Shown here: one piece after another, positions 48,806 to 58,997 of the stretch
How positions within the stretch are numbered: the stretch's first letter is position 1
How the letters are laid out: every line of letters starts with the position of its first letter
Source: Candidatus Obscuribacterales bacterium
Lineage (GTDB): Bacteria; Cyanobacteriota; Vampirovibrionia; Obscuribacterales; Obscuribacteraceae
Reading direction: 5' to 3'
Assembly (NCBI GenBank): GCA_031292355.1
Contig: JARLHI010000060.1
Span: forward strand, 62,001 to 126,000
Length of the DNA stretch: 64,000 nt
Program-made: the position numbers and the translations under genes
The notes under the pieces: generated by a model
The model's input: the letters and a program-made list of their open reading frames with translations, nothing else
Database searches by the model: none
Told to the model about the DNA's origin: nothing

Positions 48806-51800
48806 TTATTGGAAATTGCGAGAGGGTAATCGTGGATCGCCAGGCAATGTTGGCATAATTTCAACATGCTCTGCTCGGACATTAATTACTCCGTCATCAG
48901 ATTGCAAAATTCCGGTGATTGCAAGAAATGAATAACCGAGAATGACTTTGCGATATTGCTCAAATTTGTCTGGATTAACAATGATATTAGCCATTCCAGT
49001 TTCATCTTCGAGCGTCAGAAACATAAAACCTTTAGCTGTTTCTGGTCTTTGTCTACAAATTGTTCCGCCGGCAACAGTGACTTTTTTTCCATGAGGTAAA
49101 CTGTGTAAGTCAATAGCTGAACAGATGCCTTTTGATTTTGCCCATTCGCGGTAAAAAGACATCAAATGATCATCTGTGGACAGATTCATCATGTCAAAAT
49201 CAGAAATGATTTTTTCCATTGGTGTCATCTCGGGAAGCTTTGATGTTTCAGATGATGTTTCGAATTGATTGTTGCTATGAGCTTTAGCTTGCAAGCTTGC
49301 CTCAATTAAGTCCAGCAGCGGTGTTTCGACTTTCTTTTTGAGACGCAGCAATGTCTCCCACAGAGCTTGCCGCCTGTCTGGATGGAATGTTTCGAATGCT
49401 CCAGCGCGGGCAAGAATTTTCAAATCGTTATCGTTTAGTCCACTGCGTTCAATAACATCATTCAATGATGTAAATGCACCACCTGTTGTGAACGCATTCT
49501 CCAGAGTTTCACGAGCTTTGCTGCCAAGACCTTGAATTGAGCGAATTCCTAGTCTCAGACGTAATGGATGCAAACTATTTGCTAGAGTTGGAACGAGAAT
49601 ACAATCCCAAGTGCTATGTGCTAAATCTGGTGGCAAAACTTCGACACCATGTCTTTGAGCATCTCTAATTAAAGTAGCTGGACTGTAGAATCCCATTGGT
49701 TGAGCGTTGAGTATGGCGCAATAAAATTCTGGCGCAAAATAACGCTTCAAGTATGCAGAAGCATAAACAAGCAGTGAGAATGATGCGGCGTGACTTTCAG
49801 GAAAACCATAATTGGCGAAAGCTCTCAGTTGCATAAGAATGGCTTTGATTGTTTCGTCTGTGTATTGCCTTTCTCGCATGCCTTCAGCTAGTTGAACGCA
49901 CAATTTATCCATTTTTTCTTGTGAGCGTTTATGACTCATCACTCTTCTTAAATTGTCGGTTTGAGCCGGTGTGAAACCAGATGCAACAGAGGCAAGGCGC
50001 ATGCCTTGTTCTTGAAAGAGAGTTACTCCAAGAGTGCGTTTCAAAATTGGCTCAAATGAGGGATGCAAATAATTGACTGCTTCAAGTCCTCTTCGGCGAC
50101 GCAAATATGGATGGATGACATTGCCCTGAATAGGTCCTGGTCGAACAATTGCTATAGATACAACAATGTCATAAAAACATTTGGGATTGAGCTTTGGTAA
50201 AATACTCATTTGCGCTCTTGATTCAACTTGAAAAAGTCCGACAGTATCTGCTTTTTGGAGCATTTGATAGATTTCTTGATCTGTCATGTCAAGTTGACCC
50301 AATTCAATATCGAAGTTGCGATGTTTTTTTACTAATTTCAAACCTTCTTGAATCATGGTCAACATGCCTAATCCCAATAAATCGATTTTTATTAAACCAG
50401 CCAGATCAAGATCATCTTTATCCCATTGAATGACCGTTCTTCCATGCATTGAGGCAGGCTCGATGGGCACAATGTCTCCCAGCAATTCGCCGGATAAAAC
50501 AAAGCCACCCACGTGAATCGATCGATGTCGTGGTAATTGATGTAAACCAGCAATTACTTTAATCAGTTGTTTTACTTTTAAATCTTTTGGATCTAATCCC
50601 GCACTGAGAGCGCCACCATTTGCCAGGTGAAAAGCAGCCGTTTGGGCCTCGCTGTGATCGGCGGCTGTTGATAATTTATCTGCTTGTTCTTGGGAGAAAC
50701 CAAGTACCCGGGCTGCATCTCGTGCTGCCGAGCGTCCACGATAAGTGATAACTTCGCAAACCATCGCTGCATGTTCTCGACCATATTTTTCATAGACATA
50801 TTGAATTATTTTCTCTCGTTCTTGATGGGCGATATCTAAATCTATATCGGGAGGTTCATTACGTCCTTCGGATAGAAAGCGCTCGAATAATAGATCCATA
50901 CCAATTGGATCTACAGCTGTAATATAGAGGCAATAACATACGGCAGAACTGGCTGCAGAACCACGACCTTGAACGGCTATGCCATTTAATCTGGCAAAAT
51001 TGACAATGTCCCACATGATCAAAAAATAGGGAGCCAGTGCAAGACCATTGATCATGCTCAGTTCATGATTGATTTGTTTGATATGTTTTTCTGTTAAATT
51101 GAAATATCGTTTGGCTGCACCTTCCCAGACAAGCTTTTCTAATAAGCCTTTTTGAGTACTACCTTCGGAAACTGCAAAATCAGGTAATGGTGGTCTCAAT
51201 AAGCCGTGGCGAAAACGGCACTGGTCTGCTATGACAATGGTATTGCGGATGCCTTCTGGATAGTTGCGCCAGAGGAATGCCATCTCTTTGGGTGATTTTA
51301 AATTCCAACTGGCATTAGGTCGCAGGCGTCTACCAGCTGATGCTAAAGTCACTTCGTGTTTGATGCAGGTCAAAACATCGTGAATAATTCTTTTTTCTGG
51401 ATAAGCGTAATGAACATTGTTTGTCACTACCCACGGTATCGAATATTTATCAGCTATTTTAATTAGTTGCTTTGCTATACCAGCTTCTTGATTGATTTGA
51501 TGATTCCACAATTCTAGGAAGAATTTTTCACCAAAAACCTCGTGCATCTGTTGTAGATGGCTGAGAGCACCAGCTTCATCATGATTGGCTAGAAGTGTTG
51601 GAATTTTTCCGTGAACGCAGCCAGATAAAACAATTAGTCCCGAGCGATGTTCGAATAAATTGCTAAAAGAAGTGCGCGGGCTACCTCGATTACCAATACT
51701 GCGGGCTTGAGTAATGAGATGGCAGAGATTTTTGTAGCCGTTTGAATCTTCTACAAGAACGGTCAGATGTGAGTCATCTTCCATCGTCAACTCGGCACCA

Positions 51801-51994
51801 ATAATGGCATCCAGGTCAAGTTCACTGGCTGCATGAGCAAATCTGACGATGCCTCCGAGATCATCGTGATCGGTTAAAGCTAAAGCATGCAAGCCTATTT
51901 GCTTGGCGCAAACAGCTAATTCTTCCGGAAGCGATGCTCCATCTAAAAAAGAGAATGCAGAATGACAATGTAATTCCGCGTATCTATCAACCAT
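48806..51994 (-). CDS. dnaE2: Error-prone DNA polymerase III alpha subunit (DnaE2)
   Basis: 1062 residues, the size of DnaE2 rather than replicative DnaE1. The PHP domain starts YAELHCHSAFSFLDGASLPEEL, the catalytic Asp pair lies in PPDIDLDIAHQERE, the fingers contain the GGFVLSGELLGDIVPIEPASMHGRTVIQWDKDD segment typical of DnaE2, and the C-terminal part ends in a short OB-fold (GTICRQRPETAKGFMFLTLEDETGMANIIVNP) without the long tail of DnaE1. It copies past damage with ImuA and ImuB and causes mutations. Its own promoter with a probable LexA-type box is at 52100-52128. It is separated from imuAB by about 4 kb. Confidence 0.93.
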   Translation of the reverse strand: MVDRYAELHCHSAFSFLDGASLPEELAVCAKQIGLHALALTDHDDLGGIVRFAHAASELDLDAIIGAELTMEDDSHLTVLVEDSNGYKNLCHLITQARSIGNRGSPRTSFSNLFEHRSGLIVLSGCVHGKIPTLLANHDEAGALSHLQQMHEVFGEKFFLELWNHQINQEAGIAKQLIKIADKYSIPWVVTNNVHYAYPEKRIIHDVLTCIKHEVTLASAGRRLRPNASWNLKSPKEMAFLWRNYPEGIRNTIVIADQCRFRHGLLRPPLPDFAVSEGSTQKGLLEKLVWEGAAKRYFNLTEKHIKQINHELSMINGLALAPYFLIMWDIVNFARLNGIAVQGRGSAASSAVCYCLYITAVDPIGMDLLFERFLSEGRNEPPDIDLDIAHQEREKIIQYVYEKYGREHAAMVCEVITYRGRSAARDAARVLGFSQEQADKLSTAADHSEAQTAAFHLANGGALSAGLDPKDLKVKQLIKVIAGLHQLPRHRSIHVGGFVLSGELLGDIVPIEPASMHGRTVIQWDKDDLDLAGLIKIDLLGLGMLTMIQEGLKLVKKHRNFDIELGQLDMTDQEIYQMLQKADTVGLFQVESRAQMSILPKLNPKCFYDIVVSIAIVRPGPIQGNVIHPYLRRRRGLEAVNYLHPSFEPILKRTLGVTLFQEQGMRLASVASGFTPAQTDNLRRVMSHKRSQEKMDKLCVQLAEGMRERQYTDETIKAILMQLRAFANYGFPESHAASFSLLVYASAYLKRYFAPEFYCAILNAQPMGFYSPATLIRDAQRHGVEVLPPDLAHSTWDCILVPTLANSLHPLRLRLGIRSIQGLGSKARETLENAFTTGGAFTSLNDVIERSGLNDNDLKILARAGAFETFHPDRRQALWETLLRLKKKVETPLLDLIEASLQAKAHSNNQFETSSETSKLPEMTPMEKIISDFDMMNLSTDDHLMSFYREWAKSKGICSAIDLHSLPHGKKVTVAGGTICRQRPETAKGFMFLTLEDETGMANIIVNPDKFEQYRKVILGYSFLAITGILQSDDGVINVRAEHVEIMPTLPGDPRLPSRNFQ

Positions 51995-52099: not shown

Positions 52100-52128
52100 A
52101 TTCTACCATACGCTTGTATGTTAGTCAA
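52100..52128 (-). promoter_or_regulatory. Promoter and operator of dnaE2
   Basis: On the minus strand TTGACT (52123-52128), a 17-base spacer and TAGAAT (52100-52105) form a near-consensus promoter. The spacer contains the palindrome CATAC-N4-GTATG (52107-52120). The same arrangement occurs before imuA at 58968-58997, so it is probably the damage-response (LexA-type) operator. It starts 6 bp before the end of the upstream unknown gene, so dnaE2 has its own promoter. An additional near-palindrome TATGTGTAATACATA lies at about 52024-52038. Confidence 0.7.
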
Positions 52129-52133
52129 TATTT

Positions 52134-55100
52134 TTATTGAGCTGGAGTCTGTGCCGGTATCCTCTGTACAAACTGACCTTTTTCATTGAGGATGACCTGC
52201 GAGCCGTCTTTCATCCCCATAAGTGCCAACCCATTGCCATACGTCGCTCGATTAAAAGCTGTTCCCCATGGTGTTGTCTGACCAAAAGGATAATTTTCTG
52301 TCAAAAGAGGCTTCGGATAGAACTGACCGTTGTGTTCGAATTGGAGATCATCTTTTGAGAAATAACCGATGTTTCCTTGATTAACATCGTCTGCAACATC
52401 GTTGTTATGGATTAGCAATGGTGGTCGGTTGCTTTCAGGATCTTCAAAAATAATTGAACTCTTTGTCCAGTTATTAGCTCCATTAGCTACGTTTTTCAAA
52501 TATGAAACACCAAGTGGATAGCGCCATACTGCATCATATGGACTGTCTTTCAGAAGACCATCCGTGCTGAAACCATCCAATTTAGTTTCAATGGTTCCAT
52601 ATGGAATTTTTTCGCCATTAGGGCCAATTTTGTCTGACAAATAAAAGGTTCGAGGTACTGTTGCTCCTGGAAATTCTTCGAAGGCATCGGCTTTGGTGTC
52701 AGGCAACCACTTTATTGCAAATGGTGCTGGTGGCACATGCACGTTTGAATATCTAATTCCTTCCGATGATTTAATTTCTTTGACCAGAGTAATTTCGCCT
52801 TCAACCGTATTGCCATTGGCGTCCTTGGTTGGTGGTGCGGTATCAACACGCCGTACATTACCAAAGCGATTGTTGGCGAAGCGCTCATCGACAGTTCCAT
52901 CAGTTTTAAGTTTCTCGAATGGTGCGCCGTCGGGATAAGCAGTTGAATTGTATATTTCTACTTTGCCACCATCTTTCAATGTGGCAATCATGCTTTTTGG
53001 TTTGATCTCCAGCTCAATGGCTGTGCCCCAGACGGTATCCCGCCCATTAGGGTATTTTTCTTTGATTGAATCGAGATATTCAACAGCGGGTGCTTCTCCC
53101 GCTTTGTGCGTGATTACTTTTAGTTTGTCACCACCAAACTGCACCTGTTTTGTTTCGTTATCACTTTGATAGCGCAACTCGTCGGACATGCGGTGTATAT
53201 TTTCAAAATTGCCTAGCGACGTCGCCAGAGGACTGTCTGGTGCGAAGCTATCTATGGAAGAATCAGGCATCAGTTGATCCCGCGGGAAAGTGGGATCTAG
53301 CTTGCGCGGGTCATAAACGTAATCGGTAATGCTGCCATCAGTGTGCTGTTGCGTGCGTTGATAAAGAAAGAAAGCTGGCTTGCCATCAGGATTCAAAGCT
53401 ACTGGATCGCCTGGCTTCCAGTTGAATTCCATCTGACCTGTAGCGGGGTTTAACGTCTCAGGATAATCACCGACTGGTTGCGGTTTGGTAAATTCAGTTA
53501 ATTGGGTGGGGATATCAGAAAGACCATAGTCGATTCTGCCACTAGCATCATTGTGACGCAGGATGCTGCTAACCCATACTGGTTGACCGGCTATCTCTAG
53601 GGCTATTCTGCGGGGATATGTTTCCCACGTTGACTTCTCTGGTAAATTCCAGGTGCCTGGTTTTTCGATTTGATAGATATTGTGACCGGTGTGTAAGTTT
53701 TGCTCCCACTCCGTAAATGTGAATCTAGCAGGACCATCTGCTGTTGATTTGTATGTTTGACCTTCGGCGTAATTTCTGACCATGCTTGAAACTTCTTTGG
53801 TCATCGGATCAATCTTGGTCAGCACTACTTCGCTTAGATCGGCGCTAGTGAAAGAAAGCGTTTGCACATTGTCATGACCGAAAACACGAACACCGTTTGG
53901 CCAGGTGTAAGTCCAGGGCTCGCCGGGCTTTGTCGGCAGTGTGGCAATTGCATCTTTGGGAAAGTCTTTTAGAAGTGCGCTGCGATCTACGGTCCCGAGT
54001 CGCGCAGCTGTTTGATCACCATCAAGAGCGGTGTGTGTGTCGCCGGGGGTGTGAGGTGCGCCATCATGGCTGGCGCCAGGACCAATGCCAACGTTTTGTG
54101 TGAAGGCAACGCCGTCGCCACCAGCATGGATGCCGCCGCCGTGCGAGAAGCTCATTTCTGGGCGGAATTTACCGCCGCTTTGGATAAATGCCTGTGCCTC
54201 TAGAGCAAATTTGCCAGCATATTCTTTGGCAATTTCTACGGGGTTGATGCTGGTTGTTTCTGATTTGGCTCCAGACTTTTGAATCGCTTCATATCGAGCA
54301 GTATGTGCTTCGACTTCCTGCGCGACCCGTGTCTGAATGTACTCTTGGCGAGCTTCTTCGGTTTTACCACCTTCGATTGATTCGGTAGCTCTAGCGAAAC
54401 CGACCTCAAATTTGGGATCTCTGGCAATTCTTATGTGGGCATTTTCTTCAACAAACTGCGAAGGACTATCGCCAGTTTTGAGTGTGATCAAGCCTTTTGT
54501 GTGATCAATATTAGTCTCTTCGGTCGTTGAAGAGCGGGCTTTGGCAGTGATGTCCATTCGACCGGCAGAAATAGCAAGACCTGCTGCTTTAGGATCGGCC
54601 CAAGAGCCTGGTTCTGCTGGCGTATTGAGTTTAAGCGAAGCCAATGCACTTTGATGTTGTTGTTCGGCAAAGCGGTCCGCATAAGCATTAACGCCAAATT
54701 TCGGTGCAATTGCTTCTATGCCTTTCATTGCGCCTGGCAACATTGTGTTCATGAAAGCGCCAGAAACCATTGCTTTCTCGTAATGTGTGGGGTCAACATC
54801 TACATTGCCCGTAGAAATCAAAGTGCTGAAAAATTGCTGTGATGCACCAATTGGGGCGCCTGCAAGTGCTCGTAGGCCCATAGCTTTAGCATCAAGAAAC
54901 TTAGTGCTGCCAATTAATTTATTCGAGCCTTCAAAGAGAAGCATCCCTTCGCCTGCTGCAAACGCGTTACCTGTTCGAGTTTGACCTTTTTCAGGGTCGA
55001 TTGCTGCAGCATACAATGTAGCGCCTGTGACATTGGCGAGCTCGCGTCTTGCCGCAAAATTACGGATGCTCTGGGCTGTCTCAAGTTTCCAACCGGCCGC

Positions 55101-55505
55101 CTCGGCTTTAACCGCCAAAGCCTCACCGCCAGCTCGCAGATATTTGCCAGCGACCAGTCCAACACCGAGTTGCCAACCTAAATTACCTGCAGTTGAGGAG
55201 AACTGCTGAGCGTAAAAAGCAGCAGAAGTGACGCCAGCTTCTGGCACAGCGGCTGCTTGAAACTTCGAAATAGGAACGTGGAGCTTTTCAGCTTTGTCGA
55301 TGACCGTATTGACCGGCTTAACAAACGCTTCGTTGTAGAGGGGAGCAACGACATTGCCTTCAACCCAGGAAAGAGGCTTGATATAGTCTTGTTTAATCGA
55401 TTCCCAAACGCCGTTAGAGAGCTTAGATTTGTCATCCGGCTCTTTCTTCAGGGGCGCGTCAGCTGGGGTAAGACCGGCTTTTTCTATGGGGCTTGGCTGG
55501 GACAT
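52134..55505 (-). CDS. Very large unknown protein between imuB and dnaE2
   Basis: 1123 residues, family not recognised. The N-terminal 250 residues are helical and Ala/Gly-rich (NLGWQLGVGLVAGKYLRAGGEALAVKAEAAGW) without a clear signal peptide. Residues about 340-420 hold QFVEENAHIRIARD followed 40 residues later by RVAQEVEAHTARYEA, which faintly recalls a zinc-peptidase pattern whose first His is replaced. From about 520 to the end the chain is a run of beta-hairpin-like repeats rich in DG, WT and YP. Such proteins are common in Melainabacteria-type genomes; surface location or export is possible. It interrupts the mutasome, shares its strand, and probably has its own promoter at 55506-55660. 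Confidence 0.75.
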   Translation of the reverse strand: MSQPSPIEKAGLTPADAPLKKEPDDKSKLSNGVWESIKQDYIKPLSWVEGNVVAPLYNEAFVKPVNTVIDKAEKLHVPISKFQAAAVPEAGVTSAAFYAQQFSSTAGNLGWQLGVGLVAGKYLRAGGEALAVKAEAAGWKLETAQSIRNFAARRELANVTGATLYAAAIDPEKGQTRTGNAFAAGEGMLLFEGSNKLIGSTKFLDAKAMGLRALAGAPIGASQQFFSTLISTGNVDVDPTHYEKAMVSGAFMNTMLPGAMKGIEAIAPKFGVNAYADRFAEQQHQSALASLKLNTPAEPGSWADPKAAGLAISAGRMDITAKARSSTTEETNIDHTKGLITLKTGDSPSQFVEENAHIRIARDPKFEVGFARATESIEGGKTEEARQEYIQTRVAQEVEAHTARYEAIQKSGAKSETTSINPVEIAKEYAGKFALEAQAFIQSGGKFRPEMSFSHGGGIHAGGDGVAFTQNVGIGPGASHDGAPHTPGDTHTALDGDQTAARLGTVDRSALLKDFPKDAIATLPTKPGEPWTYTWPNGVRVFGHDNVQTLSFTSADLSEVVLTKIDPMTKEVSSMVRNYAEGQTYKSTADGPARFTFTEWEQNLHTGHNIYQIEKPGTWNLPEKSTWETYPRRIALEIAGQPVWVSSILRHNDASGRIDYGLSDIPTQLTEFTKPQPVGDYPETLNPATGQMEFNWKPGDPVALNPDGKPAFFLYQRTQQHTDGSITDYVYDPRKLDPTFPRDQLMPDSSIDSFAPDSPLATSLGNFENIHRMSDELRYQSDNETKQVQFGGDKLKVITHKAGEAPAVEYLDSIKEKYPNGRDTVWGTAIELEIKPKSMIATLKDGGKVEIYNSTAYPDGAPFEKLKTDGTVDERFANNRFGNVRRVDTAPPTKDANGNTVEGEITLVKEIKSSEGIRYSNVHVPPAPFAIKWLPDTKADAFEEFPGATVPRTFYLSDKIGPNGEKIPYGTIETKLDGFSTDGLLKDSPYDAVWRYPLGVSYLKNVANGANNWTKSSIIFEDPESNRPPLLIHNNDVADDVNQGNIGYFSKDDLQFEHNGQFYPKPLLTENYPFGQTTPWGTAFNRATYGNGLALMGMKDGSQVILNEKGQFVQRIPAQTPAQ

Positions 55506-55660
55506 GAGGCTCTGGGGTTGGAGTAAGACAGGCTAATTCTGGTCTAAAGTGGCTGGTTGGGGAATGGGAGTTATACGAAGTTGCTGGGTTTTTAGGCGCA
55601 ATTCACCCTTGATACAACATCGACTAAACTATAAATACCCGGAAAGTTTGAGGATGCCTC

Positions 55661-56272
55661 ATGCACAACGACTCCAATGAAGCTCTGTCGGTCGCCAAAG
55701 CGACTTTTAATCGAATGGATGAGAGTAAACCGACAGACTGGCAGATAATTGCTGGCAGCATGAGACCTTTTGTGGCGGATCTGCCAAATCGAGTTCTCAA
55801 ACATTTGCAATTATTGTCAGGTGATTATGGTGGCTTTCAAATCGACAGGCTGCAGCATTGTCTGCAAACTGCAACGCGGGCTCATCAGGATGGAAAGGAC
55901 GAAGAATATGTCGTCTGTTGTTTGCTACACGATATGGGTGATTTGCTTGGACCTCTCAATCATGCAGATATTGCGGCGGCGGTTTTGAAGCCGTTCGTTT
56001 CAGAACAAAATCACTGGATGGTTGAGCACCATGCCATCTTTCAAGGCTACTATTTTTTTCAATACCTGGGTTTAGATCGCAATATGCGAGACCAATTCAA
56101 ACAAAGTCCCTTATATGATTACACTTTGGAATTTTGTGACAAATACGATCAAAATTCTTTTGATCCCGATTTTAAAAATATGTCGTTGGATGAATTTGTG
56201 CCGATGTTAAAACGACTATTTTCTCAGCCGAAACAGTCAATTTACTTGAAGGCTATGCCTGAACTGGGTTGA
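55661..56272 (+). CDS. HD-domain protein, possibly PhnZ-like di-iron oxygenase
   Basis: 203 residues. It carries an HD-type metal set: H66, H90-D91, H101, H124 and D160 or D163. A Tyr (Y56) ten residues before H66 and the segment MVEHHAIFQGYYF resemble the HD-domain mixed-valent di-iron oxygenases (PhnZ, TmpB) more than classic HD phosphohydrolases. The 24-residue distance from H66 to H90 matches PhnZ as I remember it; the H90-D91 to H101 gap is shorter. Oxygenase against an organophosphonate, or plain phosphohydrolase, are both possible. Transcribed rightward, alone between imuB and the large unknown gene. Confidence 0.72.
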   Translation: MHNDSNEALSVAKATFNRMDESKPTDWQIIAGSMRPFVADLPNRVLKHLQLLSGDYGGFQIDRLQHCLQTATRAHQDGKDEEYVVCCLLHDMGDLLGPLNHADIAAAVLKPFVSEQNHWMVEHHAIFQGYYFFQYLGLDRNMRDQFKQSPLYDYTLEFCDKYDQNSFDPDFKNMSLDEFVPMLKRLFSQPKQSIYLKAMPELG

Positions 56273-56283
56273 TTTGTGGCGCT

Positions 56284-57945
56284 TCAGTCATAAATGCCGT
56301 CGACGAACCATGATTTAGAATCCTGTTCGTGAAAAATTGATAACAGGGTTGGTTCTTCAAGTTTTTCTAGCGGTTCAGATTTTGTGTCTATCAAAGCTGT
56401 GTAGTAAGAACGTCTTATTGGATCGTCCCACCAGTTACCAGATAAACATTCTGGTGCAGTTAATCGTTTGATGTAATGCCAGCGTCCATCATATCTAACA
56501 GCTTTGGGGCTGCCTTCATGAAATTCAACGATAACAGGAACCGGTGGTGTATTTTTCTTTAAAACTAAATTTGGCACTAGTCCTTTTTCTCCCAGTAAGT
56601 TGTCTATGTATGTGGTATTGATGACGGTAGCAACTAAATTTGATTCAGATGTTGAATTGTCTGTGTAATTGTGATTCGCACTGGAAGCTTGTTTGTCAAT
56701 CACAGCTTGCCAGCGACCTGCCTTTTCGGGCAAGTATTGATCATTGGCAATTGGCTTGACGAGAGCATCTCCTCCTAATCGGAGAATAAAACGCTGTAAA
56801 AGCAAATTCATATTTTCGAGAGATTCTGCTTTTTCGTCATTTGCTATTTCAGGTAATTCAGCAATTTGGGATTGCTGCCATTGGGCTGATGAAAAGCGAG
56901 TAATTGTGATTTTTAAAGCGGTGAATTCTCGTGTTAAAGGTTGTGCTTCAAGTGATATCCGCACCACATCAAGTAAAAATTTAGGATTATTCGATGGCTG
57001 CACAAGGGGAATCGAACGTTCATCAAATTTTTCGTCATCACTAAAAAATGATACTGATAATTCTTCTGCTCGTAATTCTTCTTCGTTCAAGGATTCAGTA
57101 AGTCCGTCCAGCATAGACTTCATTACGAACATTGTTTGATTCAAAGCTTCAATTGGACCGCCTAGATCAACTTGAGATTCGAAGATTTTATTGATGATAG
57201 GTATCCGTGGTTGACTCAAATCGAAGCCGAGAGCCAACTCATGGGCTGATAATCCTTCTTTACCAAATCTTTTTAATACATCATCGCGTGGGATTTGCAC
57301 TAACTGTCCCATCGTTTTGATGCCAAGAGAAAATAGAAGGTCATATAAATTTTGACTGATTGGCAGATGATCGATTGGCAGTCTGGATAAAAACTTTGCG
57401 CTGCTGTAGTGATTGACAATGAACCAGCGTCTATCTTTTACGCGAGTGGCTACAAGAGCAGGAAAGGCACTATCAGCAATACCGACCTGACCGTTGACAT
57501 AACCGGCTTTGCTGGCAATTCTTAAAATGTCTCTACATAATTTATTTTCTCCACCTAGACGTTGCCGGCCGCTTGCATCAAGAAGGAAAATGCCTGATTG
57601 ATGTGACGCCACGCGAGGAGAGCAATCTAAAAGAGTTTGTACAAAATCGGCCTGAGCCTCTTCGTACAATCTTTCATTGCATTCACGCCATAATAAATCC
57701 GCGCAAGTGGCTCTGGCATCAGATAATTTCATGCCTGCATAAATGCCTTTTTTGCTAGCCTCAGGCGAGCACATAAAAACAGAAATTCTGCTCAAGGTTG
57801 AAGCATTGCTGTAAGTCACTTTATCGACGGAACCTCTGGGCCTTGCTGGCACCAACACAAATGGTTTACTTTTTAAAAGCAGTTCTTGCTTCTGGTGTAC
57901 GACAATAGGAAATCTGGGAATGCGTAAGCAAGCAATTCGCGGCAT
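56284..57945 (-). CDS. imuB: Mutasome protein ImuB (Y-family polymerase-like)
   Basis: 553 residues. The protein follows the DinB/UmuC fold: N-terminal MPRIACLRIPRFPIVVHQK, the palm and fingers (KKGIYAGMKLSDARATC; FLLDASG), the RFGKEGLSAHELALGFD helix-hairpin-helix, and a C-terminal little-finger and ImuB tail. The catalytic acids of active Y-family enzymes are missing at CLRIPRF (no DxD), as known for ImuB, which acts as a hub for ImuA, DnaE2 and the beta clamp. I do not see a good clamp motif (QxxLxF or similar); WQQSQIAELPE is the nearest place. RBS GAGGTGG lies 12 bases before the ATG at 57945, 20 bp after imuA. Its start lies in a tandem repeat (see junction). Confidence 0.9.
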   Translation of the reverse strand: MPRIACLRIPRFPIVVHQKQELLLKSKPFVLVPARPRGSVDKVTYSNASTLSRISVFMCSPEASKKGIYAGMKLSDARATCADLLWRECNERLYEEAQADFVQTLLDCSPRVASHQSGIFLLDASGRQRLGGENKLCRDILRIASKAGYVNGQVGIADSAFPALVATRVKDRRWFIVNHYSSAKFLSRLPIDHLPISQNLYDLLFSLGIKTMGQLVQIPRDDVLKRFGKEGLSAHELALGFDLSQPRIPIINKIFESQVDLGGPIEALNQTMFVMKSMLDGLTESLNEEELRAEELSVSFFSDDEKFDERSIPLVQPSNNPKFLLDVVRISLEAQPLTREFTALKITITRFSSAQWQQSQIAELPEIANDEKAESLENMNLLLQRFILRLGGDALVKPIANDQYLPEKAGRWQAVIDKQASSANHNYTDNSTSESNLVATVINTTYIDNLLGEKGLVPNLVLKKNTPPVPVIVEFHEGSPKAVRYDGRWHYIKRLTAPECLSGNWWDDPIRRSYYTALIDTKSEPLEKLEEPTLLSIFHEQDSKSWFVDGIYD

Positions 57946-58070
57946 AAGAATTCATCGCCACCTCATTATTTTTTGATAGCCACTCTGGATTTTGGTATTC
58001 GACGATCGGGAATTTGGGGATGAGTAAACAAGCGATTCGCGGCATAAGAATTCATCGCCACCTCGATATT
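57891..58070. repeat. Diverged tandem repeat at imuA/imuB junction
   Basis: Positions 57891-57970 match 57991-58070 at a constant offset of 100 bp, about 67 of 80 bases identical by hand count, with an exact 30-base match (57935-57964 to 58035-58064). The lower copy contains the ribosome site and start of imuB; the upper copy lies inside the last codons of imuA. Since 100 is not a multiple of 3, the two copies are read in different frames. Confidence 0.85.
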
Positions 58071-58796
58071 ATTTGTCAGCCCATCTTTGGCGATGGTGCC
58101 ATGAATATTAGGGGCTATTGATGTGACACCATTTAAACCATCTTCGCAAACAAGTGGTGTCGACCATTCAAAGTGAAGTTGTGTATAAACTCCCCAGTTG
58201 GATTGAGCAGAGCTTGTTATTTCATGATCTTTTACAACTAATAGAGCGGCTTTGGAGGCATCTAATGCTCGTTGCAGTCTCGTATAAAGACGACTTGATA
58301 ATGGTGTAGCGTTGCTTGAATCAAAAACAACTACATCAAATAAATTTGAACGAATTAGCTGTTCAGCTGCCCATACAGCATTTTGTTTATGCTTTTTATT
58401 ATTGTTAGAAAGATTACGTACCACCCAGAAACGACCTGGTGAGCGAGCTGGTTCGACAAGAGCAAGTGGCTTTTTACCGATAGGTCTGCCGCCAGCTTTG
58501 CCTTCTTCTATGAAAGCCCAATCTGATGGAACTAATTTATTATTGCTATCAATATAAATGACATGCAAACCGGATGCACACCAGTTTGCTACTACTGATC
58601 GAAGAACAGTGGTTTTACCAGAAGAGGCTGTTCCTCCCCATTCAGTAATGCGTTTTCTAGCAAGTCCTTTTGAAGGACTGGAATCAATATCTTCTAGTCC
58701 CGTTTGCAGATTTTTCTTGTTCAGTCCCTTGGTTAGCCATTTGCCTGGGAACAATTGTTCAAAATGTTCTTTTAAAGTGGCAATGTTGCTTCGCAT
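57966..58796 (-). CDS. imuA: Mutasome protein ImuA (RecA-like)
   Basis: 276 residues from the ATG at 58796; the frame is open further upstream, but GGGTGAC precedes this ATG and the upstream residues are cysteine- and phenylalanine-rich and unlike protein termini. RecA-like ATPase fold with Walker A ITEWGGTASSGKTTVLR and a Walker-B-like strand LFDVVVFDSSN. ImuA binds ImuB and RecA in the mutasome. The C-terminal 25-30 residues (AMNSYAANRLFTHPQIPDRR) are encoded inside a copy of the imuB start region. The promoter with the CATAC-N4-GTATG operator lies 170 bp upstream. Confidence 0.87.
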   Translation of the reverse strand: MRSNIATLKEHFEQLFPGKWLTKGLNKKNLQTGLEDIDSSPSKGLARKRITEWGGTASSGKTTVLRSVVANWCASGLHVIYIDSNNKLVPSDWAFIEEGKAGGRPIGKKPLALVEPARSPGRFWVVRNLSNNNKKHKQNAVWAAEQLIRSNLFDVVVFDSSNATPLSSRLYTRLQRALDASKAALLVVKDHEITSSAQSNWGVYTQLHFEWSTPLVCEDGLNGVTSIAPNIHGTIAKDGLTNNIEVAMNSYAANRLFTHPQIPDRRIPKSRVAIKK

Positions 58797-58967
58797 TGTA
58801 CTGTCACCCTTAAATCTGAAAGCAATTTTGAGATGCGCGAATCCGCGCGTAAAGAATACGCATTGAGTGAGGACGCAAAAATCAGCAAGCATTCAAATTC
58901 GAGTGCATGCAATGAGCGATGATTCGATGCGCCGCTCATGTATTTATGGGAATTAGGAACTGAAGTA

Positions 58968-58997
58968 ATTAAACCATACAAGTGTATGGCTCGTCAA
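58968..58997 (-). promoter_or_regulatory. Promoter and operator of imuA-imuB
   Basis: On the minus strand TTGACG (58992-58997), an 18-base spacer and TTTAAT (58968-58973). The spacer holds CATAC-AAGT-GTATG on the plus strand (58975-58988); with one more base pair outside it reads CCATAC...GTATGG. The box and its position in the spacer match the dnaE2 promoter at 52100-52128. A bound repressor would block RNA polymerase directly. Leader to the imuA start is about 165 bases. Confidence 0.7.

Follow-up and report, generated by a model that had tools for sequence, protein, structure and literature searches.

A predicted LexA operator, CATAC-N4-GTATG, in SOS-type promoters of Obscuribacterales

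We propose that the dyad CATAC-N4-GTATG, or more generally YATAC-N4-GTATG, is the LexA operator of the order Obscuribacterales (with a probability of roughly 0.93). The box is seen directly, as are its position within promoters, its conservation, the limits of the clade that carries it, and the fact that LexA has kept its cleavage residues. LexA is strongly predicted to be the protein that binds the box, and repression and its relief by DNA damage are predicted as well. A preliminary description had put the box forward as the LexA box of this lineage, and comparative genomics supports that proposal.

The window (the whole stretch of 64,000 nucleotides that we analyzed) contains two promoters with the box, those of the mutasome genes dnaE2 and imuA (Table 1). 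As originally reported, both have CATAC-N4-GTATG between the -35 and -10 elements. Both matches are exact, and the sequences that flank them are indeed unlike each other. The box is 112 bp from the start of dnaE2 (at 51994) and 178 bp from the start of imuA. The latter start is most likely at 58796, instead of 58892, and was reset to the conserved MRSNIATLK. Because the ImuA model gives just 22.6 bits, we named imuA by gene order and family conservation. Among named genomes, the relatives of the window's ImuB are at two loci, from a Candidatus Obscuribacterales MAG and from a MAG labelled Proteobacteria, and both loci have the box at imuA.

Table 1. Predicted operators, promoters, and genes of the mutasome region in the window
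Feature	Position	Strand	Basis
LexA-type operator (predicted) of dnaE2, CATACAAGCGTATG	52107..52120	-	exact box, in promoter spacer
dnaE2 promoter TTGACT-N17-TAGAAT	52100..52128	-	sequence: TTGACT-AACATACAAGCGTATGG-TAGAAT, box inside N17 spacer
dnaE2, error-prone DNA polymerase	48806..51994	-	NF004225, 1200 bits (cut-off 939)
LexA-type operator (predicted) of imuA, CATACACTTGTATG	58975..58988	-	exact box, conserved at imuA across 20 assessable genomes
imuA promoter TTGACG-N18-TTTAAT	58968..58997	-	sequence: TTGACG-AGCCATACACTTGTATGG-TTTAAT, box inside N18 spacer; family consensus TTGAC..-CATACN4GTATG-gtTTAAT
imuA, 276 aa, RecA-like	57966..58796	-	ImuA model NF033429, 22.6 bits only; operon and conservation
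imuB, Y-family polymerase-like protein	56284..57945	-	PF00817, 48.7 bits
1123-aa protein, between imuB and dnaE2	52134..55505	-	without Pfam match
HD-domain-like protein, between imuB and 1123-aa gene	55661..56272	+	21.4 bits, just under cut-off of 22

The gene for the 1123-aa protein separates dnaE2 from the imuAB promoter, and a large protein between imuB and dnaE2 may be the source of the split of dnaE2 from the cassette. The 1123-aa protein has a partial likeness (29% over 438 aa) to a 910-aa protein that is encoded at the same place in another genome of the order (G013, L294:2154-4886).

Within the window, the two boxes are the sole exact matches. Allowing up to two mismatches, there are 14 sites versus 18.3 expected, so these near-matches are noise. 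Across the whole genome (6.6 Mb), the exact box is found at five places, versus two for a reversed-pattern control: at dnaE2, at imuA, at a second ssb gene (CATACGTTTGTATG, directly behind the TTGA of the -35 element), in a gap between tetR and an efflux gene, and inside one gene. With one mismatch there are 85 sites versus 83 for the control, which implies that a scan of a single genome cannot define the regulon, while a comparison of genomes can. We rejected one-mismatch sites on their own as a genome-wide regulon finder, and intragenic exact or near sites (in C9, C39, and others) were counted as chance. The number of exact sites in this genome is modestly above chance; the evidence lies in where the sites are.

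To see if the box is conserved, we compared genomes that each belong to a different genus, by database labels, and whose N4 and flanking sequences have diverged. The translesion polymerase genes of these genomes have the predicted operator. Upstream of imuA, we enumerated all 5-base dyads with spacers of 0-12. CATAC-N4-GTATG was the top dyad (17/20 loci), and the next-ranked dyads were shifted readings of the same site. Within 400 bp of imuA, 18 of 20 loci have the exact box, and the remaining two are accounted for. As for the three exceptions in the enumeration, G019 is cut by the end of its contig, G022 has TATACATATGTATG, and G021 has the exact box upstream of a gene that abuts imuA. G017 has one further exact imuA site. 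The layout at imuA is constant (see the family consensus in Table 1). Where dnaE2 is not directly behind imuB, it has the exact box in five of six genomes (this genome, G001, G007, G014, and G015); the sixth, G013, matches at only 8/10 positions. The order's dnaE2 genes that are directly behind imuB have no box upstream. In G003, imuA is apart from imuB-dnaE2, and each of the two promoters has an exact box.

The second ssb gene has the exact box in 16 of 17 genomes, again as the top dyad, and the 17th has one mismatch (CTTAC). The layout is always TTGA-CATACN4GTATG. The ssb promoter of G009 carries a tandem pair of exact boxes (L204:1201-1232), both preceded by TTGA and lying 18 bp from each other.

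Consistent with autoregulation, a predicted operator is also found at lexA itself: 26 of 27 lexA upstream regions in the order contain ATAC-N4-GTAT, with T as the first base where the box has C. The layout is nearly always T[AG]GACA-N17-TACTATACTTAYGTATG. The sole lexA of this genome has TATAC-TTAC-GTATG (TATACTTACGTATG), which overlaps its -10 element. A search of related genomes, as had been suggested, thus found the box at lexA (with T first), imuA, the split-off dnaE2, and the second ssb.

A gene for an SplB-like radical-SAM protein (a putative DNA-repair enzyme) appears to join the regulon in most of these genomes. It has the exact box in G003, G005, G008, G012, and G014, a 9/10 box in this genome (G000:C7:3781), G002, G004, and G010, and an 8/10 box in G006 and G011. 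There is no box upstream of splB in G007.

Could a palindrome be common to two unrelated promoters by chance? For this genome alone, the excess of exact sites is small and the one-mismatch sites are at chance. But the box is at the same place in orthologous promoters from about 20 genera. With a generous background, the binomial probability is under 1e-49 for the imuA set and for the ssb set, although this treats the genomes as independent, and so overstates the case, as they are related. Given the conservation at imuA, dnaE2, and ssb and the unbiased ranking of dyads, we consider a chance origin to be refuted. The preliminary description had taken occurrence in promoters at chance frequency as evidence against the box. 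Genome-wide, the one-mismatch sites are at chance frequency; the exact sites are somewhat more frequent than the control, and the conservation at promoters is far above chance.

The box is also enriched across whole genomes. In 17 genomes of the family, YATAC-N4-GTATG has 243 strand-counts versus 125 for the reversed control. A version with an N5 spacer is not enriched (88 versus 139), and neither is the N4 box in members of the class from outside the order (27 versus 29). The enrichment ends at the order Obscuribacterales and is confined to genomes that hold one type of LexA.

The genes without the box include recA. It had been expected that recA would be among the genes with the box, but none of the 18 recA upstream regions that we checked in the order contain it. 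Apparently, recA is outside of the order's LexA regulon; an operator at recA is a frequent feature of such regulons, but not a universal one. The box was also absent upstream of two negative controls, dnaE1 and the housekeeping ssb. The recA genes of the order (L042-L066) do have a conserved -10 of the TATAAT type, and in several genera there is a conserved stretch upstream (GATCGCATATACACCAGACGGCATGCGGGTT), with no LexA box.

These genes also bear on whether the dyad is conserved as part of the core promoter, instead of as an operator. The box sits immediately behind the -35's TTGA at ssb and overlaps the -10 at lexA, which speaks for the core promoter. But the dyad is at three different offsets to the -35 and -10 elements (at lexA, ssb, and imuA), and its symmetry is kept around a free N4: the arms do not vary, whereas 26 different N4 sequences occur among 40 sites. 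Also, the dyad is missing upstream of recA, dnaE1, and the housekeeping ssb. We give the core-promoter explanation very little credence.

The LexA protein itself is canonical. This genome encodes one copy (216 aa), with PF01726 (LexA_DNA_bind) and PF00717 (S24 peptidase) both over their cut-offs and 169.8 bits for TIGR00498 (cut-off 110.95). All aligned LexA proteins of the order retain the Ala-Gly cleavage bond (A84-G85) and the Ser/Lys dyad (S119 and K156; in E. coli columns). Their recognition-helix motif, [KR]NRMT[VI], is invariant. In the same phylum, the Cyanobacteriia-type LexA has [KR]SPAP[VI], with AGTAC-N4-GTTCT at its own lexA gene, and other members have STST[VI], with CGAAC-N4-GTTCC at lexA, which is nearly identical to the Gram-positive box. 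The phylum therefore has three pairs of helix and operator (STST/CGAAC, SPAP/AGTAC, and NRMT/CATAC), and all three boxes share an AC-N4-GT core. The simplest reading is that the LexA helix and its operator changed together. Since the sister clades have two related boxes, the steps between GAAC, GTAC, and ATAC might be attributed to specific residues of the recognition helix.

Another regulator, such as a TetR-type protein, a second S24 repressor, or a PafBC-like activator, might own the box and control the DNA-damage genes, including lexA. A TetR protein can own such a box: in both this genome and G005, the gap between tetR and the efflux gene contains an exact site, and its N4 is identical in the two. 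That is a different context, however, and among the genomes examined it is limited to these two. In contrast, the box is at lexA in nearly every genome, where it overlaps the promoter as an autorepressor's site would, and its enrichment coincides with the clade whose LexA has NRMT. Control by another regulator is improbable. The tetR/efflux site itself (CATACTCTAGTATG; L004:1501-1514 and L185:1195-1208, from two genera) was not counted as a LexA operator, as N4 is the same in both genomes; it is probably a TetR operator that resembles the LexA box.

Several observations do count against LexA as the owner of the box: the left arm at lexA is TATAC, not CATAC; recA has no box; the tetR/efflux gap has an exact site; dnaE2 of G013 matches at only 8/10 positions; and splB of G007 lacks the box.

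LexA is a classic example of a repressor that is itself conserved but has different operators in different lineages. The Gram-positive LexA box, as in B. subtilis and actinobacteria, is CGAAC-N4-GTTCG. The box in Obscuribacterales has the same 5+4+5 geometry and spacer length, as was pointed out initially, and the same AC-N4-GT core. The three outer positions are CAT instead of CGA, the Gram-positive arms GAAC/GTTC are not matched (they are ATAC/GTAT here), and the recognition motif of the protein differs.

LexA sites from Nostoc and other Cyanobacteria have been described as RGTACNNNDGTWCB or AGTACWNWTGTACT, and several species have such sites at ssb and recA (PMC3091678). Like these, the box in Obscuribacterales is a 14-bp dyad (5+4+5) with a TAC-N4-GTA core, it is in the promoters of lexA and ssb, and it is accompanied by a canonical LexA. 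Unlike these, its outer bases are CA/TG (not AG/CT), LexA has NRMT (not SPAP), and recA is not included; the cyanobacterial arms AGTAC/GTWCT are not matched by CATAC/GTATG. The original claim that the two boxes are distinct holds for the outer bases, but the two have AC-N4-GT in common over the whole box, and TAC-N4-GTA as regards the left half. The comparison argues strongly for a lineage-specific LexA box that shares the AC-N4-GT core.

imuA-imuB-dnaE2 is known as an SOS mutasome cassette from Caulobacter, Mycobacterium, and Bacteroidetes (PMC8565304, PMC10421592), and imuA-imuB-dnaE2, ssb, and splB are recognized SOS members in other lineages (PMC8565304). In Obscuribacterales we see the same three cassette genes with a predicted DNA-damage operator in the promoter, but the operator is different. 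In this genome, two genes stand between dnaE2 and the rest of the cassette, and dnaE2 has a copy of the operator to itself. The LexA motifs of Balneolaeota and Bacteroidetes are a direct repeat and, for a repressor that is not homologous, dyads (PMC7739468, PMC8565304). There too, the operator changed in a specific lineage and translesion genes were kept under control; Obscuribacterales differ in having a canonical LexA and a dyad with a 4-bp spacer. By 2021, 17 LexA motifs had been reported (PMC8565304). Full-text searches (with subscription-only papers outside their scope) found no study of this motif, or of LexA in Obscuribacter, Melainabacteria, or Vampirovibrio. The box would add one more motif, from a little-studied non-photosynthetic cyanobacterial order, and would give a direct route to the SOS genes of that order.

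From established LexA biology and the positions of the sites, we propose that a LexA dimer would keep RNA polymerase off by occupying the dyad, which lies between the -35 and -10 elements or overlaps them. The dimer would be in the spacer at imuA and dnaE2, at the edge of the -35 at ssb, and on the -10 at lexA. Its targets would be lexA, imuA-imuB(-dnaE2), the separately transcribed dnaE2, the second ssb, and, mostly, the SplB-like gene. Upon DNA damage, the RecA filament would induce LexA to cleave itself at the Ala-Gly bond, which would release these genes. With recA outside of the regulon, the sensor would stay constitutive; this suggests that recA can sit outside while mutagenic polymerases remain controlled. 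On balance, we lean slightly towards a joint reading: a small SOS regulon that is centered on mutagenesis and lacks recA, a LexA helix and operator that changed together, and the inclusion of an undescribed protein family.

That family comprises unnamed proteins of about 270 aa from G015 (L085:659-1474) and from G024 and G026 (L280:1385-2203 and L076:523-1341). The proteins from the two taxonomic families are 29% identical over 236 aa, have no NCBIfam match, and have a Cys-rich C-terminus. A LexA-type box is upstream of the gene in both families (in G015 and in the sister family f2). In the sister family, the gene lies opposite xseA, which encodes the large subunit of exonuclease VII; its box, TATACTTATGTATG, is identical to the one at lexA of these genomes. 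This protein is a candidate new SOS gene. Two other sites were each seen in one genome. In G012, a gene for an HD-domain phosphohydrolase-like protein has TTGACA...GATACCATACATCAGTATGG just upstream (L214:1201), in a layout like that of lexA. In G014, TTGACACACATACAACCGTATGGTATAC (L218:929) resembles an SOS promoter of the imuA type and is about 310 bp upstream of an unnamed ORF that starts at 1253.
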